A DNA stretch of 64,000 bases from Candidatus Kutchimonas denitrificans (GTDB lineage Bacteria > Gemmatimonadota > Gemmatimonadetes > Palauibacterales > KS3-K002): NCBI GenBank assembly GCA_011774835.1, contig JAACAK010000080.1, positions 1-64,000 on the forward strand. Reading direction: 5' to 3'. A program made the position numbers and the translations under genes. Under the pieces are notes generated by a model. It saw only the letters and a list, made by a program, of their open reading frames with translations, was not told the origin of the DNA and did no database searches. Below, in pieces: positions 4,621 to 60,240 of the stretch; position 1 is the first letter of the stretch, and each line of letters begins with the position of its first letter.

Positions 4621-4731
4621 TGGGAAGTGGGGAAGTCGGATATCGGGATTCCGATTTGGGGAAAGTCCAGTTCTCTCCGAATTGTCGAAGCGGATTCGGG
4701 GATTCGGGGATTCGGTGATTCGGGGAGGTTG
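4621..4731 (+). repeat. Intergenic repeat family A, copy A1 (single arm)
   Basis: A G-rich arm made of iterations of GGGGATTCG. It contains the 18-base core CTCTCCGAATTGTCGAAG at 4673-4690, shared with copies at 36 kb, 45.7 kb and 48.3 kb. No complementary C-rich partner of the same family follows; a family B arm takes that place. In another frame the arm would read as RIPESPN-like peptide, which explains a spurious N-terminal extension of the gyrA-type frame. Confidence 0.85.
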
Positions 4732-4738
4732 GAGGGTC

Positions 4739-4811
4739 CACCCACCATCCAGCGCCGACCACCCACTACCCATCACCCACTACCCATTACCCACTACCTC
4801 TCACCCTTACC
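4739..4811 (+). repeat. Intergenic repeat family B, copy B1 (C-rich arm)
   Basis: Degenerate tandem units of CCCACTA/CCCATCA run through this stretch (ACCCACTACC, ATCACCCACT, CATTACCCAC). This is the reverse-complement type of the GTGGGTAGTGGG units at 57.67 kb. It abuts family A arm A1, giving a composite A-B element between two divergent genes. Confidence 0.75.
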
Positions 4812-33087: not shown

Positions 33088-36027
33088 ATGTACGCGTCTG
33101 CACCCAGACTCGCTCGCAGCTGCTCCCTGCTTCTCGTGGTCGCCTGCGCGGTCGCCGGGCCGCTCGAAGCTCAGGAGAATCGCACCCTCACTTTCGCCGA
33201 CCTGATGAAATTCAGGCAGATCGAGAACGCGTCGATCTCCAGAGACGGCCGCTGGATCGCGCTGGCGGCGGTCCCGGACCGGGGCGACGGCGAGGCCATC
33301 GTCGGTTCCACCGACGGGGAGATCCGCTACGCCGTGCCGCTGGGCGCCGCGCCGGTCATCTCGGGCGACGGTCGCTGGGTGGCGATGCGGCTGGAGCCGA
33401 CACTGGAGGAACGGGAGAAAGCCGAGAACGGCGAGGCCCCGCGGCCCGGGCTGGCGCTGCTGGCCACCCGGGACGGCGCCGTGACGACCTGGGAGGGGGT
33501 GCAGCGCTTCGCCTTCTCCGCCGACGGGAGGTGGCTGGCGCGTCTGCACCACGAGCCCCGGGACACCGCCGAAGCCGACGAAGAGGGAGCCGAGGCGGAG
33601 GCGGAGGTCGAAGCAGAGGAGCCGACGGAGCCGCAAGCCGAGGAAGGGGCGGCGGAAGAAGCGCGCCGGCGCGAGAAGCCCGGCACGCTTCTCGTGCTCC
33701 GCGACCTGGCGACGGGCGACGAGATCGAGGTCGAGCATGTCGCCACCTTCGCCTTCGACGAACAGGGGCGCTACCTGACATACATGGTGGCGTCGCCGGA
33801 CGGGTCCGGCGACGGCCTCTACCTGTTGGACCTGGCGGAACCGGGCTCGGTGCTGCCGCTGGATTCGGCGGCCTTCGCGCACATCGAGAGCTTGGCCTGG
33901 TGGGAGGACGGGCCGCGCCTGGCCTGGGTCTCGTCGATCGAAGACGAGGAGGGTGAAGCGGGACCGGGAACGCTGCGCCTGTGGCGCGACGGACGGACGA
34001 CGACCGCGGTCGACGCCGGGGATGTCCCCGAGGGGTGGACGCTGCCGGCGGACAACCGGCTGAGCTGGAGCGAGGACGGCGAGCGGCTCTTCTTCGGCTA
34101 CCGGCCGGCGGGGCCGAAAGATGATGAGGAGGAGCCGGAGGGGGTTCCCGGTCCCGCAGCCGACGAGCCCGGAGCCGAGACCGATACGGCGCAGGCCGAG
34201 GCGCCCTTCAACCCGTACGATCTCGACGCGATCCTCGCCGAGCGCGAGGTGGACGTCTGGCACACCGAAGACCCGCTGATCATCCCGAACCAGAAAGAGA
34301 TGTGGGAGAATCTGCAGCGGCAGACGTACGATGTCGTGTATCACCTGTCCCGGCGACGCGCCTTCCAGCTGGCCGACACGATCGTACAGCTGGGCGGCCG
34401 ACCGGAGACGGGAGAGCGGGCGCTGGGGTTCGCGTCGCGGCCGTACTTCAAGGAGCGCACCTGGGCAGGCTTCTTCTCGGACATATACGTGATCGACCTG
34501 GACGACGGCGAGCGGACGCGCGTCGTGGAGCGAGCGAGCGGCGGCGGTTCCACGGTGGGCAGCTGGTTCGGCGGCACCCGCACGGCGGGTGGCTGGATCA
34601 GCCTGGCGCCGAGCGGGCGGTATGTCGTCTACTTCAACGACCGGGAATGGCACCTGTACGATGCGGAGCACGGCACGACCCGGAACCTGACCCGCGGCAT
34701 GGACGTCGCCTTCCACGACATCGACCACGACTATCCCGACGAGCCCGGCGCCTACGGGGTCGGCGGCTGGATCGAGGACGATCGGGCCGTGCTGATCTAC
34801 GACAAGTACGACGTCTGGCAGTTCCCCGTGGGCGGCGGCGAGCCGGTGAACCTGACGGGCGGCCAGGGTCGGGCGGAACGGCGGATCTACCGGGTGCTGC
34901 CCGTCGATCCGGAGGTTGACGCGTACGAGAACGGCGCCTGGATCCACCTGGCCTCGTTCGGCGAGCTGGACAAGAGCTACGGGTTCTACCGGACCCGGGC
35001 CGGGCGTGGCGGTCTCGAGCGGCTGGCCGACGAGGGCCGCAAGTTCGTGTTCGAAGCCAAGGCCGAGGACGCCGATGTGCTGCTCTTCACCCGGGAGGAC
35101 TACGACGAGTTCCCCGACCTCTGGGTCGGCGATCTTTACTTCGGTGACAGACGAAAATTGACCGACGTGAACCCGCAGATGAGCGAGTTCGCTTGGGGCA
35201 CATCGGAGCTGATCGAGTGGACCTCCGACGACGGGGTCCCGCTGCACGGCGTGGTGATCAAGCCGGGGAACTACGAGGAAGGGAAGCGCTACCCCGTGCT
35301 GACGTACTTCTACCGCTTCTTCTCGCAGCGCCTGCACGAGTTCAACGAGCCGGTGGTGAACCACCGGCCCAGCTTCCCGGTCTACGCCTCGGACGGCTAC
35401 ATCGTCTTCCTGCCCGACGTCCGCTTCGAGGTGGGCCGGCCCGGGATCGCGTCGATGAAGAGCGTGGTCCCGGGGGTGAAGAAGCTGGTGGAGGTGGGCC
35501 TGGCCGACCCCGAGGCGCTGGGTCTGCACGGCCACTCGTGGAGCGGCTACACCACCTCGTTCATCGTGACCCAGACGGACATCTTCGCCGCGGCGGTGGC
35601 CGGCGCGCCGGTCTCGAACATGACCAGCGCCTACGGCGGCATCCGCTGGGGCAGCGGCCTGGCGCGCCAGTTCCAGTACGAGAAGAGCCAGAGCCGGCTG
35701 GGCGTCAGCCTGTGGGAGGACCGGTCCCGCTACATCGAGAACTCGCCGCTGTTCTACGCCGACCGGATCGAGACGCCGCTGGTCATCATGCACGGCGACG
35801 AGGACGGGGCGGTGCCCTGGTACCAGAGCATCGAGTTCTACCTGGGGCTGCGGCGCCTGGGCAAGCCGGCGGTCTTCCTCCAGTACCGGGACGAGCCGCA
35901 CCACCCGCAGAAGTACGCGAACAAGCTGGACTACTCGATCAAGATGAAGGAGTTCTTCGATCACTTCCTGAAGGGCGAACCGGCGCCGGAATGGTGGACG
36001 GAAGGAATACCGTACACCGGCAAGTGA
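33088..36027 (+). CDS. Secreted S9-family (prolyl oligopeptidase-like) peptidase
   Basis: 979 residues with a signal peptide (about 1-28, ending PLEAQEN). A long beta-propeller-like N-terminal part contains an acidic, Glu/Ala-rich insert (about 152-195). The C-terminal alpha/beta-hydrolase has the nucleophile in GHSWSGY, the acid in HGDEDGAVPW and the catalytic His in EPHHPQKY, in the S9 order Ser-Asp-His. It probably cleaves peptides in the periplasm or outside. A family A hairpin begins directly after its stop. The Ser box GHSWSG differs slightly from the usual GxSxGG. Confidence 0.9.
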   Translation: MYASAPRLARSCSLLLVVACAVAGPLEAQENRTLTFADLMKFRQIENASISRDGRWIALAAVPDRGDGEAIVGSTDGEIRYAVPLGAAPVISGDGRWVAMRLEPTLEEREKAENGEAPRPGLALLATRDGAVTTWEGVQRFAFSADGRWLARLHHEPRDTAEADEEGAEAEAEVEAEEPTEPQAEEGAAEEARRREKPGTLLVLRDLATGDEIEVEHVATFAFDEQGRYLTYMVASPDGSGDGLYLLDLAEPGSVLPLDSAAFAHIESLAWWEDGPRLAWVSSIEDEEGEAGPGTLRLWRDGRTTTAVDAGDVPEGWTLPADNRLSWSEDGERLFFGYRPAGPKDDEEEPEGVPGPAADEPGAETDTAQAEAPFNPYDLDAILAEREVDVWHTEDPLIIPNQKEMWENLQRQTYDVVYHLSRRRAFQLADTIVQLGGRPETGERALGFASRPYFKERTWAGFFSDIYVIDLDDGERTRVVERASGGGSTVGSWFGGTRTAGGWISLAPSGRYVVYFNDREWHLYDAEHGTTRNLTRGMDVAFHDIDHDYPDEPGAYGVGGWIEDDRAVLIYDKYDVWQFPVGGGEPVNLTGGQGRAERRIYRVLPVDPEVDAYENGAWIHLASFGELDKSYGFYRTRAGRGGLERLADEGRKFVFEAKAEDADVLLFTREDYDEFPDLWVGDLYFGDRRKLTDVNPQMSEFAWGTSELIEWTSDDGVPLHGVVIKPGNYEEGKRYPVLTYFYRFFSQRLHEFNEPVVNHRPSFPVYASDGYIVFLPDVRFEVGRPGIASMKSVVPGVKKLVEVGLADPEALGLHGHSWSGYTTSFIVTQTDIFAAAVAGAPVSNMTSAYGGIRWGSGLARQFQYEKSQSRLGVSLWEDRSRYIENSPLFYADRIETPLVIMHGDEDGAVPWYQSIEFYLGLRRLGKPAVFLQYRDEPHHPQKYANKLDYSIKMKEFFDHFLKGEPAPEWWTEGIPYTGK

Positions 36028-36034
36028 GGGGAGG

Positions 36035-36281
36035 GTGGGAATTCCGAAGTCGGATATCGGGATTCTGATTTCGGGAAGTTCGAGTTCTCTCCGAATTGTC
36101 GAAGACGATTCGGGGATTCGGTGATTCGGAGATTCGGGGAGGTGCGAACCGTCCTGGCTGATTCAGCCTCGCGATCACCTCCCTATTCCCCGAACCCCCG
36201 AATCCCCGAATCCGCTTCGACAATTCGGAGAGAGCTGAATATCCCCGAAATCAGAATCCCGACATCCGACTGGGAATTCCC
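36035..36281. repeat. Intergenic repeat family A, copy A2 (complete inverted pair)
   Basis: The left arm 36035-36144 and right arm 36176-36281 are imperfect reverse complements (by eye above 80% matched) with a ~31-base loop. The 18-base core is at 36087-36104 and its complement at 36215-36232. The arms carry GATTCGGGGATTCGG iterations. The element fills the gap between the stops of two convergent genes, eight to ten bases from each. Confidence 0.9.
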
Positions 36282-36290
36282 TGAGTCCCA

Positions 36291-38225
36291 TCACCCGTCG
36301 ATGAGCTTCTGTACTTCCCGCTGCGCGTCCATCAAGCGGTCGATGTCGTCGGCCACCTCCCGGGCGGCCTCCAGGTCGCCGGTCAGGCTTTCGACGCTGC
36401 CGCCGCCGGCGTGCATGTGGAGCAGGCCCAGGCGAATCGTCTCCAGCGCCGCCACCGCGTCGGCCAGCCGGTCCTGCGCTGCGTCGCGCGCCGCGGCCAG
36501 GTCGTCCTCCAGCTGCTGCTGCCGCTCCGTCACGTCGCTCTCGGGGAGCGCCGCCTGCAGCGACCGGCTCTGCCGCTTGTCCGCCCGCAGGCCGCCGAGC
36601 ACCTCGGTCAACTCGTCCACCCGGCGGCGCATCCGCTGGGCGTCGTTTTCCAGCTTTCGCACCACGTCGGGCAGCTGGCGCAACGATCTCCGCGCCGCAC
36701 GCGGCAGCTGGTCGTAGAGGCGGTCCGCCGCCAGGCCGATGGCGATCTCGGTGGGCCGGTAGGTGGCCGAGCCCGCCTGCGGGAGCCGCTTGAGGCCCAG
36801 GCCGGCGAGCCGGAACATCCAGCGGCCGAACCGGGAGCGCCAGAGCCAACTCCGCAAGCGCCCGTCCAGATCGTGTCGCTTCTGGATCCGGGTCAGCGCC
36901 GGGACACCGGTGCCGAGGCCGGTCAGCAGCCCGAAGCTGAAGGTCAGCGCCAGCGTCTCGGACGGGCTGTTGAACATGGCGATCAGCGATACGGCCGCGG
37001 TGACGATGCCTCCGACCGAGAGGACGCGGAGTGACCATTCGTACTTCGATGGCTCGTGGCCGTACTCGAACGACCCTTCTTCCCGGTTGCGCTCGATCTC
37101 GGCCCGGAAGGCGACCAGCAGCTCCTCGCGGCCGAACCCGGACTTGAGGAGCCGGCGCACGCGGTTCACCGTGATCCCCAGCGGCGCCAGACTGAGGCCG
37201 CCGAAGAACACGCCGTATCCGATCGTCGTTCCCAGCCCGTAGCCCACCGCGCTGCCCAGGAGCGAGGCCACCGTTCCCGACGCGCTGAACAGCAGGAAGA
37301 AGTAGAGCAGGATGCCGCCGGTCCCGATGTCGCCGGTCCGCTTGATGAAGGAGCGGAGGGGCGCGGGCACATCCCGGCGTTGCTCCACCAACTGGCCCAG
37401 CGTCTCGGCCAGCTCCTCCTCGTTCGGGAACCGGTTCTCCGGCTCCTTGGCCAGGCAGCGGTCGATGGTCCGGGCCAGTTGGGTCGGCACGCCCGGCGCC
37501 ACCGAGACCAAAGCCGGCGCCGGCTCGCTCAGGTGCTTGCCGAGGATCGCCGGCGCCGTCGAACCCTCGAAGGGAAGGCTGCCGGCGAGGGCGTAAAAGC
37601 CCACGATGCCGAGGGAATAGATGTCGCTGCTCGCGCCCACCGGACCGCCGCGGGCCTGTTCCGGGCTCATGAACTCCGCCGTCCCCGCCACCCGGTCGGC
37701 CCGGCCCCCGGCGCTCTCGGCCACGCTGGCGATCCCGAAGTCGGCCACCAGCGCTCGCCCGCTCCCCTCCTCCAGCAGGATGTTGTCCGGCTTCACGTCC
37801 CGGTGCACGACCCCCTGGGCGTGGGCATAGGCCAGCGCCCAGGACACCTCGCGCAGGATCCGGGCGACCTCCGAGGCGGCACGCGGCCCCCGCGAACGCA
37901 CACGCTCCCCCAGCGTCTCCCCCTCGATATAGGCCATGGCGAAGAACACGAAGTCGTCGACCTCGTCGACGGCGAAGATCGGGACGATGTTGGGGTGCGA
38001 GAGCTTCGCGGCGGTCCGGGCTTCCTGCAGGAACCGCTCGCGAGTCGCCGCCTGCCCGGCGAGCGCCGGCGGCAAGAGCTTCAGCGCCACCGGACGATCG
38101 AGGCTCACCTCGCGCGCCAGGTACACGATCCCCATGCCGCCCCGGCCGAGCTCGCGCTCGATCGAATAGCGGCCGGCCAGCGCCTGCTGCAGCTCCACGA
38201 ACCCGGCCTCGGTCTGATCGACCAT
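36291..38225 (-). CDS. Ser/Thr protein kinase with multi-helix membrane region and coiled coil
   Basis: 644 residues from ATG 38225, chosen for AAGGTGG just upstream; the frame continues further 5' but without credible protein. The kinase domain (about 20-285) has GRGGMG (28-33), K49, HRDVKPDN (141-148) and DFG (162-164). Then come about four hydrophobic helices (around 305-440), a linker and a long C-terminal coiled coil with many Arg, Glu and Gln. No extracellular TPR or PASTA part is seen, so sensing may be in the membrane or by the coiled coil. The substrate is unknown. Confidence 0.88.
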   Translation of the reverse strand: MVDQTEAGFVELQQALAGRYSIERELGRGGMGIVYLAREVSLDRPVALKLLPPALAGQAATRERFLQEARTAAKLSHPNIVPIFAVDEVDDFVFFAMAYIEGETLGERVRSRGPRAASEVARILREVSWALAYAHAQGVVHRDVKPDNILLEEGSGRALVADFGIASVAESAGGRADRVAGTAEFMSPEQARGGPVGASSDIYSLGIVGFYALAGSLPFEGSTAPAILGKHLSEPAPALVSVAPGVPTQLARTIDRCLAKEPENRFPNEEELAETLGQLVEQRRDVPAPLRSFIKRTGDIGTGGILLYFFLLFSASGTVASLLGSAVGYGLGTTIGYGVFFGGLSLAPLGITVNRVRRLLKSGFGREELLVAFRAEIERNREEGSFEYGHEPSKYEWSLRVLSVGGIVTAAVSLIAMFNSPSETLALTFSFGLLTGLGTGVPALTRIQKRHDLDGRLRSWLWRSRFGRWMFRLAGLGLKRLPQAGSATYRPTEIAIGLAADRLYDQLPRAARRSLRQLPDVVRKLENDAQRMRRRVDELTEVLGGLRADKRQSRSLQAALPESDVTERQQQLEDDLAAARDAAQDRLADAVAALETIRLGLLHMHAGGGSVESLTGDLEAAREVADDIDRLMDAQREVQKLIDG

Positions 38226-45273: not shown

Positions 45274-45693
45274 ATGAGCGGTGAGTTCTTTAGTCGCGTG
45301 ATCCGCTTCCGGGACTACACCTGGAAGGGCATCCGGGCCGTCTCCTACAAACCGCCCGGCGAGTCGTGGAGCGGCGTGATCCGTCAGCGTCTGCTGGGGC
45401 CGGAAGAGGCGCTGCCGTTTCACGTTCGCTATTTCGAGATCGAGCCAGGCGGCCACACCACGTTCGAGCACCACGACCATCAGCATTCGGTGATCGTGAT
45501 CCGCGGCAGCGGACGGGTGCGTCTGGAGGATCGCTGGGAGGAATTGAGTTTCGGCGATGTCGTCTACGTGGCGAGCGGCGCCGCCCACCAGTTCCGAGCC
45601 GCCGCCGATGAGCCGCTCGGCTTCCTCTGCATCGTGGACGCGGAGCGCGACCGACCCGTCCACCTGGAGGATGACTCTGGGATAGCGAAGTGA
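45274..45693 (+). CDS. Single-domain cupin protein
   Basis: 139 residues from ATG 45274 (GAGGA upstream). Cupin motif 1 is G(X)5HHDHQHSVIVIRGSG, supplying three His and a nearby Glu for metal; motif 2 is FGDVVYVASGAAHQF. The fold binds Mn, Fe or Zn and often acts as an isomerase, dioxygenase or sugar-binding protein. It follows the two dehydrogenases on the same strand, across a 189-bp gap filled by a family C repeat. Specific function unknown. Confidence 0.85.
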   Translation: MSGEFFSRVIRFRDYTWKGIRAVSYKPPGESWSGVIRQRLLGPEEALPFHVRYFEIEPGGHTTFEHHDHQHSVIVIRGSGRVRLEDRWEELSFGDVVYVASGAAHQFRAAADEPLGFLCIVDAERDRPVHLEDDSGIAK

Positions 45694-45701
45694 TGCGTTA
45701 G

Positions 45702-45813
45702 CCCGAACTTCCTACCTTCCCGAATCCCCGAATCCGCTTCGACAATTCGGAGAGAACTCGACCTTCCCCAAATCGGAATCCCGATCTCTGATTCCCAATT
45801 TCCAGATTCCCGA
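45702..45813 (-). repeat. Intergenic repeat family A, copy A3 (single arm)
   Basis: A C-rich arm of CCCGAATCCCCGAATCC iterations holding the complement of the family core, CTTCGACAATTCGGAGAG, at 45737-45754. It fills the space between the cupin stop and the stop of the convergent outer-membrane protein gene. No same-family partner arm is present. Confidence 0.85.
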
Positions 45814-45814
45814 C

Positions 45815-46456
45815 TTATAGCCTCCAGACGCCGCCCAGTCCGACGACGACAGCATCGCCTTCCCCGAAGTTCCCGTCACCGAACCGCAGGTCCAGCATCA
45901 CGCCGAAGCGCGGCGTGATCGTGAAGAGGCCGCCCAGGTCGAGCATCAGCGCCACGTCGGAGCTGTCGTCCCCGGAGCTGACACCGAGCTCGAGCCGGGG
46001 AAAGGTGAAGATCTCGGAGTCGCCACCCGCCAGGCGAAAGCCGATGCCCGCCAGGAAGCCCACCGGGAACTTCCAGACCGTGGCGCTCGGTTCGCTGACG
46101 CCGAGGCCGACGTCGAAGCTAAGGTGGAAGAGTCCGCCCCCGCTGCTCAGCCGCCGGCCCAGCAGACCGTAGCGCAGATCGGCGCCGGCGAACGGCGTGT
46201 CCTTCGCATCATCGATGAGCCAGAGGCCCGCCCGACCGCCGATGTCGATGTCGTCGGCCACAGCGAAGCGGATCATGCCGCCGAGGACGAACGAGTTGTC
46301 CGGGATCGCGATGTAAGGCAGAAACGTTTCGCCGGCCGGTATGCCGGCGGTGAGCATGGCGGGCTCGGCGACGACCTGACCGTCGGCGCTCCGGGCCCCG
46401 AACAACAAACAGGCGCCCGCCAGCACGGCCGCCGCGAAACTGCCAAACCGGTTCAT
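45815..46456 (-). CDS. Outer-membrane beta-barrel protein
   Basis: 213 residues behind GGGGAGGAGG. The signal peptide ends near ARSADGQ. The body is alternating strands (FVLGGMIRFAVADDIDIGG, FHLSFDVGLGV) and ends in GVMLDLRFGDGNFGEGDAVVVGLGGVWRL-type strands with a C-terminal Leu. It is a small diderm barrel with unknown cargo. It is divergent from the ECF sigma gene. Confidence 0.72.
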   Translation of the reverse strand: MNRFGSFAAAVLAGACLLFGARSADGQVVAEPAMLTAGIPAGETFLPYIAIPDNSFVLGGMIRFAVADDIDIGGRAGLWLIDDAKDTPFAGADLRYGLLGRRLSSGGGLFHLSFDVGLGVSEPSATVWKFPVGFLAGIGFRLAGGDSEIFTFPRLELGVSSGDDSSDVALMLDLGGLFTITPRFGVMLDLRFGDGNFGEGDAVVVGLGGVWRL

Positions 46457-48308: not shown

Positions 48309-48709
48309 GGAAGCGGGAAACGGGAATCTTGAATTCGGAGGTCGGGGATCCCATTTGGGGAATATTGAGCTCTCTCCGAATTGTCGAAGACGATTCGGGG
48401 ATTCGGGGACTCGGGGATCCGGGGAGGTGGGAAGTGTTGTAGCTTCAGCTCAGCCATCATCACCTCCCTTTTCCCCGAATCCCCGAATCTCGGAATCCTC
48501 GAATCCGCTTCGGCAATTCGGGGAGAACTGAAAATTCACAAAATCGGAATCCCGGCCTCCGACTTCCCGGGGATCCCCCAATCCCCTCCACACCCCCCGC
48601 TTGCTTCCTGCCTCTCCTCGCGATATGTAATCCCTTCGGGCGCCCACCCGTCCTCTGTTCTCGTGCATCGATCGGCGTTATTGATGGAATCGGAAAACGG
48701 ACGACCCTC
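48309..48709. other. Intergenic region mostly filled by a family A hairpin
   Basis: 400 bp without a gene. Positions 48314-48586 are the family A element A4. The remaining 120 bp before the ATG at 48710 show no clear promoter boxes or ribosome-binding site beyond GGAAAACGGACG. Confidence 0.7.
48314..48586. repeat. Intergenic repeat family A, copy A4 (complete inverted pair)
   Basis: The left arm carries the core at 48372-48389 and the right arm a slightly changed complement, CTTCGGCAATTCGGGGAG, at 48508-48525. The loop is about 35 bases around 48430-48460. It begins a few bases after the endonuclease IV stop. It lies in a tandem, not convergent, gap. Confidence 0.88.
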
Positions 48710-57668: not shown

Positions 57669-57779
57669 GTAGTAGGTAGTGGGTAGTGGGTAGTGGGTTG
57701 TGGGTGTGGTAAGGGGCCGAGGGGTGTCCAGGCATGACACCTTTCGACCCACCACCCCCAACCACTCACCACTTACCGT
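57669..57779. repeat. Intergenic repeat family B, copy B4 (complete hairpin)
   Basis: It begins directly after TGA (57666-57668). The left arm has AGTAGTAGGTAGTGGGTAG units; the right arm is CCACCACCCCCAACCACTC and CACTTACC. A perfect apical stem GGTGTC-CAGGCAT-GACACC (57723-57741) closes the structure. It is the clearest family B copy. Confidence 0.88.
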
Positions 57780-57951
57780 AGTTCGGCGTCCCCCGCCCGG
57801 AAGCGGTCCCGACCACGTACTCTCGGAACGGGACCCCCGGGCTTTATGTTTGTCACAGGGAAAGTGAAGCCGGTGTCGCCGCGAGGGCGGCGGTCTGCCG
57901 GCCACCGTTCGGACGCAGTCGGGAGCGGTGGAGAGCAAAGCGAGGAAGGGC

Positions 57952-60144: not shown

Positions 60145-60240
60145 GTACGGAGTTGGACGTTGAAAGTTGGACGTTGGGTGTTGGATGTTCGGTCGGCGGA
60201 TTGAACGTCCACCGTCCAACATCCAACTTCCAACATCCAA
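60145..60240. repeat. Intergenic repeat family C, copy C2
   Basis: It begins directly after TAA (60142-60144). The left arm is GGAGTTGGACGTTGAAAGTT with further GTTGG units; the right arm has CCGTCCAACATCCAAC and TTCCAACATCCAAG. The centre is GTTCGGTCGGCGGATTGAAC. It separates the convergent metalloprotease and uracil-DNA glycosylase genes. Confidence 0.88.

Follow-up and report, generated by a model that had tools for sequence, protein, structure and literature searches.

The dispersed palindromes that we refer to as family A are, with a probability of roughly 0.7, an ORF-less, MITE-like offshoot of an inverted-repeat mobile element that encodes an S23 protein; our best reading is that this element is related to the intervening sequences (IVS) of 23S rRNA. 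The window in which the palindromes were noticed, i.e., the whole stretch of 64,000 nucleotides analysed here, belongs to a genome (G000) of 3.76 Mb in 149 contigs that is 86.6% complete. The first-pass annotation of this window had described imperfect palindromes sharing an 18-base core, and this core is indeed present at its loci, exactly at 4673 (+), 36087 (+), 36215 (-), 45737 (-) and 48372 (+), and with 2 mismatches at 48508 (-); the number of core matches expected by chance in the window is 0.07. The span 36035-36281, predicted to fold with -171.4 kcal/mol (z = -16 vs. shuffles), had been correctly recognized as a palindrome, but its ends had to be moved to about 36036-36290, where it runs from TGGGAATTCC to GAGTCCCA. 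Likewise, the division of the copies into two-armed and one-armed ones stands overall, except that some of the supposed one-arm copies are internal-deletion derivatives in which part of the other arm, either a remnant or its terminus, is still present. The family A features of the window are as follows.

36036-36290, no strand: two-armed ORF-less family A element (cores, termini TGGGAATTCC...GAGTCCCA, gene calls, fold z -16).
36087-36104, plus strand: 18-base core of its left arm (core search).
36215-36232, minus strand: 18-base core of its right arm (core search).
36142-36182, no strand: its inner arm ends and loop (arm alignment, comparison with the ORF-bearing copy L022).
48322-48586, no strand: second two-armed ORF-less family A element (cores, arm model R1, termini).
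4621-4735, plus strand: single-arm family A copy (core, arm alignment); arms of a second family, with GTAGTGGG-type units, come next at 4756-4800.
45690-45813, minus strand: lone right arm that retains part of the left inner end and lies between the convergent genes 45274-45693 and 45815-46456.

The element at 36036-36290 nearly fills the gap between the convergent stop codons of the genes at 33136-36027 (+) and 36291-38225 (-), and the left side of its inner segment 36142-36182 (GGGGAGGTG...) is the counterpart of the region in which the ORF-bearing copy has the ribosome-binding site (RBS) and start of its S23 ORF.

A genome-wide search for the core, as proposed in the first-pass annotation, yielded 54 matches (with at most 2 mismatches) in G000 versus 0 for a reversed-pattern control. 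We retrieved 34 more stretches of G000 beyond the window, aligned their arms, and built from sequence alone an arm model, R1; all family counts given here derive from pattern and model searches. R1 detects 83 arms in G000, which cluster into about 55 loci; both arms are present at about 27 of these. Elsewhere, it detects 43 arms in G001 and 11 in G006, two genomes of another genus in the same family, where most of the arms match just the GGGGATTC part of the model, and there was one marginal match in the remaining relatives searched. A search of related genomes for the core had been proposed as well; it is absent in 39 relatives and private to G000.

Read from the outside inward, a family A arm consists of TGGGAAT, variable iterations (GTCGGGATTCTGA-like), TCGGGATTCTGATTTSGGGAAGNTCGAGTTCTCTCCGAATTGYYGAAG, and iterations of GATTCGGGGATTCGGGG; the iterated unit, GGGGATTC, is 8 nt long, and of the two inner arm ends, one reads GGGGAGGTRGGAAGTG and the other typically GGGGAAAGACGAAGTG, a recurrent but not universal arrangement. 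Judged by the calls of a simple codon-usage gene caller, all 38 family A loci examined are intergenic in a genome whose window is about 90% coding, the sole overlap being that with the S23 ORF itself. The neighbouring genes are convergent at 19 of 37 loci (p = 5e-6) and divergent at only one of them, and many copies begin on or directly behind a stop codon. In G001, one gene is truncated by a related palindrome, which seemingly provides its TAG stop.

Family A copies are decaying, and nothing points to selection on the hairpin once it has been inserted. The compensatory changes between the two arms that the first-pass annotation had proposed as a check did not materialize: in 19 two-armed copies, complementarity within a copy (48.2 of 64) does not exceed that between copies (48.9 of 64; permutation p = 0.90). 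The arms of these 19 copies are also free of an excess of G.U over A.C mismatches (71 vs. 63) and of an RNA-strand bias. No target-site duplication, the other check that had been named, was found in 12 copies (mean match of 1.5 nt vs. 1.44 nt under the null, p = 0.42). The lack of arm covariation and of target-site duplications, together with the absence of the core from the 39 relatives, leads us to infer decaying insertions rather than a maintained RNA structure. Among the one-arm copies (window position 4673, L015, L026, L027, L038-L042; contrast L023), we observed that the arm kept is almost always that on the RBS side of the S23 ORF. Furthermore, at the YY positions of the core, TT in one arm goes along with CC in the other in all six two-armed copies of this kind (L011, L029, L030, L031, L034, L035), independent of the side, which resembles a subfamily signature. 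An identity with a known Rfam family was rejected, since only sub-threshold matches to eukaryotic or viral miRNA-like hairpins were obtained, and these we take as chance matches to any long hairpin.

A single one of the approximately 55 family A copies contains a gene. In L022 (contig C123, ~141.75-142.37 kb), the arms lie 500 bp apart and enclose an intact minus-strand ORF of 128 codons; because this copy lies outside the window, the S23 gene had escaped the first-pass annotation. The L022/L046 ORF belongs to S23/PF05635 (49.8 bits over the cut-off) and matches TIGR02436, 'four helix bundle protein' (1.8e-20), and its product matches by sequence PDB 2RLD, the structure of BT_0352 from Bacteroides thetaiotaomicron VPI-5482. 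An AlphaFold2 model of the S23 product reached a pLDDT of 93.6, and Foldseek retrieved with this model the S23 structures 2RLD and 2GSC as best matches, followed by Avd of the Bordetella phage BPP-1 (4DWL) and a ribonucleoprotein of a diversity-generating retroelement (8UB7). The full element is hence arranged as TGGGAAT, an iterated-unit arm ending in GGGGAGGTGGGAAGTG, an S23 gene of about 128 codons, and the inverse arm ending in ATTCCCA, with the S23 start codon located at the GGGGAGGTGGGAAGTG arm end, whose sequence is Shine-Dalgarno-like. The left arm of L022 has the top R1 score in G000 (104.4 bits), its two arms resemble each other more closely than those of any other of the 19 pairs (59/64; all others at most 55), and they match the family A consensus almost perfectly; the high arm score and arm similarity are as expected of a master or youngest copy. 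Nevertheless, with one ORF in about 55 copies, it is conceivable in principle that the S23 gene was inserted into a palindrome as cargo.

Six PF05635 genes are present in G000, and by eye each of them lies between inverted arms that have their own iterated unit (GGGGATTC, GTGCGTTAGT, TCGGTGTGCGG, GTAGTGGG, TTTTCAATT and GTTGGACGTT); at five of the six, the arm score exceeds that of the gene's own shuffles. The GTAGTGGG pattern has 74 matches in G000 versus 9 in the control. Palindromes of such additional families are also found in the window.

57669-57783, no strand: ORF-less palindrome with GTAGTGGG units, the S23-bearing member of which is L045 (contig C103).
12625-12800, no strand: degenerate palindrome of the GTAGTGGG family.
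60150-60240, no strand: ORF-less palindrome of a third family with GTTGGACGTT units, the S23-bearing member of which is L048 (contig C131).

The pairing of S23 genes with iterated arms extends across phyla. Within the phylum, 105 of 200 sampled genomes possess S23 genes, with up to 14 per genome, and inverted arms score above shuffles at 36 of the 43 S23 loci tested; as these loci were chosen as the best-scoring S23 matches, they do not represent a random sample. A scan of 85,462 genomes provided 80 further S23 loci from many phyla, including Bacteroidota, Acidobacteriota, Cyanobacteria, Chloroflexota, Planctomycetota, Nitrospirota, and a Methanophagales archaeon. Among these multi-phylum loci, 50 of 75 score above shuffles, and no far-flank control exceeds the 99% control level. 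When the data are pooled, 76 of 115 S23 genes attain a score of at least 35, versus none of 498 same-size arbitrary blocks taken from the window and G001; roughly one in three of the tested S23 genes has no detectable arms. The best-fitting period at the 76 loci is 7 (43 loci), 8 (16) or 9 (8), thus accounting for 67 of them. The idea that armless S23 loci are rRNA insertions was rejected, as no Rfam match was found at any of 20 S23 loci from other phyla, most of them armless. Two side observations may be added: the iterated inverted repeat at an S23 gene on a Methanophagales archaeal contig (L203) is weak, and within the phylum, Y1_Tnp genes occur about four times as often in genomes with S23 as in those without it, possibly as a clade effect.

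The arms are part of the element itself, their type tracking the S23 protein: arm k-mer content and similarity of the S23 proteins are correlated (Mantel r = 0.27, p = 0.0005), and AGAAGTTA arms are common to Prevotella-, Bacteroides- and Phocaeicola-type loci, though synonymous sites are near saturation. The S23 protein, in turn, is by its substitution pattern under purifying selection, with a dN/dS of about 0.2 in two pairs with finite dS. The nearest relatives of the family A S23 protein, with about 60% identity, occur in genus g2, where the arms are GGGAATTC/GGGAGGTAGGGAGGT (also written TTGGGAATTC...GGGAGGTAGGGAGGT); this genus has ORF-less palindromes too.

The first-pass annotation had argued for a selected or mobile element as opposed to chance low complexity. 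The mobile part of this claim is supported by the approximately 55 intergenic loci, the ORF-bearing member, and a presence/absence difference between congeneric genomes; the notion of a maintained hairpin is not supported, since the arms do not covary. The congeneric genomes G001 and G006 share about 80% DNA identity and a conserved gene order, and both are gap-scaffolded. At gap A, an intergenic palindrome of G001 is absent from the orthologous site in G006, and at a second G001/G006 site just the remnant TTGGGATTTTCCCA is left; there are no N runs near either gap A or the site of the remnant. Insertion polymorphism of family A itself was not found because no genus-mate was among the genomes compared. 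No transposase, recombinase or reverse transcriptase is encoded within the element, and since target-site duplications are missing as well, its mobility is inferred from its distribution and from one clear presence/absence site.

A rearrangement breakpoint between G001 and G006 at an S23 element was dropped as evidence, because 100-N runs at the G006 junctions make a scaffolding artefact probable. Runs of exactly 100 N occur at several places in the single-record assemblies of G001 and G006 (L108, L249, L250, L229, L231, and others), some of them adjoining S23 elements or palindromes, and apparent rearrangements at these runs are probably scaffolding artefacts. Separately, we noted S23 elements in G001 (L107) and G006 (L110) at seemingly the same place, 3' of a chaperonin-like gene (GroEL-type C-terminus); their arm sequences differ, and the ORF in G006 looks decayed.

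How, then, might family A have spread, if not as the offshoot of an S23-encoding element? An ordinary DNA transposase could mobilize its copies in trans, with S23 as a passenger in one of them, so that the palindromes would be classical MITEs. Their small size, inverted arms, intergenic sites and gene-less copies fit this view; yet we hold it to be unlikely, as target-site duplications are missing, the arms are made of iterated units instead of fixed terminal inverted repeats, and the arm type tracks the S23 protein. In addition, the association with S23 recurs at 76 of 115 loci in many phyla and with different arms, which is not expected of passenger DNA. The sole ORF-bearing family A member found encodes S23 and no transposase (the genome was scanned for Y1 transposases only). 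If the mover were a Y1 transposase (RAYT/IS200-like), family A would correspond to REP/REPIN-like hairpins, which are likewise scattered between genes, and Y1_Tnp is indeed found in 41 of 105 S23-positive versus 10 of 95 S23-negative phylum genomes, clade effects not having been removed. This domain (PF01797) is, however, missing in both G000 and G001. Of the 105 S23-positive genomes, 64 lack it, among them 11 of the 23 that have eight or more S23 copies, and family A copies measure about 250 bp, not 20-40 bp. A REP/REPIN-Y1 origin is thus already contradicted in these assemblies unless the gene lies in their missing part, and we regard it as very improbable.

The element could also be copied via RNA: its hairpin transcript would be bound by S23 in an Avd-like manner and handed to a reverse transcriptase, and the cDNA would integrate behind the 3' ends of genes. 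The match of the S23 fold to Avd, a homology already noted (PMC10053308), the position of the insertions 3' of stop codons, and the predominant retention of the arm on the S23 RBS side by one-arm copies speak for such a route. Its weak point is the enzyme, as RVT_1 (PF00078) is absent from G000 and G001 and is found in 12 of 105 S23-positive versus 17 of 95 S23-negative phylum genomes, and in only 2 of 23 genomes with at least eight S23 copies; moreover, the arms lack an excess of G.U over A.C mismatches. Consequently, copying via RNA seems to us no less doubtful than the passenger scenario. Both the reverse transcriptase and the Y1 comparison rest on one sample of 200 genomes from the phylum and are uncorrected for phylogeny. 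Finally, the host might have selected the structure at gene ends, either as a bidirectional terminator or as a hairpin for RNase III or mRNA stability. While the location at stop codons, the enrichment between convergent genes and the very stable predicted fold could all be accommodated in this way, the arms drift independently (p = 0.90), many copies have lost one arm or the loop, a related palindrome is missing at an orthologous congeneric site, the family A core is absent in relatives, and the location at stop codons would result from the purging of harmful insertions, too. We consider such host selection quite improbable.

Returning to family A as the offshoot of an S23-encoding element, we envisage that the S23 protein, which probably assembles into a pentameric ring as Avd and the relatives with solved structures do, would recognize the arms as a DNA or RNA hairpin, although no nucleic-acid binding data support this inference. 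It might then help full elements to be copied or inserted, and act in trans on copies that have lost the loop; this step is inferred as well, no transposition chemistry having been shown. Insertion would presumably rely on replication, repair or RNA-processing enzymes of the host, and the surviving insertions would be those that landed right behind stop codons. In our best reading, the element can do without a resident reverse transcriptase and without a Y1 transposase, with the proviso that the assemblies of both G000 and G001 are incomplete. Our confidence in any particular chemistry for family A is much lower than that in its descent from an S23-encoding element.

A broader generalization, whose chances we put slightly short of even, is that S23/IVP genes define a class of mobile elements that is widespread among prokaryotes, whose inverted arms consist of iterated 7-9 nt units and whose movement involves no recognized transposase or resident reverse transcriptase. 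Many dispersed heptamer/octamer repeats and intergenic palindromes in bacterial genomes would then be gene-less offshoots of these elements, and the rRNA IVS would be the branch that inserted into rRNA. Within the open-access literature, we found no paper that links S23 genes with iterated inverted repeats; most subscription journals were outside the scope of this search. The heptamer arrays of Xanthomonas, Nostoc and Beggiatoa and the S23 proteins without a known function have until now been separate unexplained observations. Their co-location provides a likely role in a mobile element for S23 and a likely source for the repeats, and it makes the old idea that rRNA intervening sequences are mobile elements testable. 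Should movement require neither a transposase nor a reverse transcriptase, the mechanism would be new.

Among known systems, MITEs resemble family A in being short, non-autonomous and intergenic, with terminal inverted repeats and no transposase of their own; family A differs from them by the lack of a target-site duplication, by the lack of any transposase partner found, and by S23 as its partner ORF. REP/REPIN sequences are hairpins of 20-40 bp tagged GTAG/CGTC, whereas family A copies are about 250 bp long and have TGGGAAT ends. Avd of diversity-generating retroelements has the same fold as the element's S23 protein; unlike these retroelements, however, family A is not accompanied by a reverse transcriptase gene, either in the element or found in G000. 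The TAACTGA heptamers of Beggiatoaceae, for which a repeat-binding protein has been proposed as a possible mobile element (MacGregor, 2015, PMC4679880), are dispersed and intergenic like family A, but they are mostly direct repeats close to start codons, with no protein identified. The G-rich heptamer repeats GGGAATC and GGGGA(T/C)T of Xanthomonas and Nostoc, for which no association with mobile elements was found (Rehm et al., 2015, PMC4692102), come closer: they too are iterated G-rich units that are intergenic, near stop codons and rare between divergent ORFs, and in Xanthomonas they often form convergent inverted pairs, just as family A forms inverted pairs near stop codons. To this type of repeat, family A adds the core, the long arms and an ORF-bearing member; S23 is not mentioned in PMC4692102, and the S23 structure 2GSC (Xcc0516) derives from Xanthomonas campestris. 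IVP ORFs occur in rRNA insertions of CPR bacteria (PMC11270868), and the IVS of 23S rRNA that encode S23p, e.g., in Coxiella burnetii, have been described as selfish, with their mobility unknown (PMC4990558). Such an IVS is built like the full element of family A: its S23/PF05635 ORF is flanked by terminal inverted repeats, which pair to form a long hairpin. It resides in a helix of 23S rRNA and has a plain 28-bp stem, whereas the family A loci lie between predicted protein genes in 38 of 38 cases, and the S23 elements described here possess arms of iterated 7-9 nt units and many ORF-less copies.
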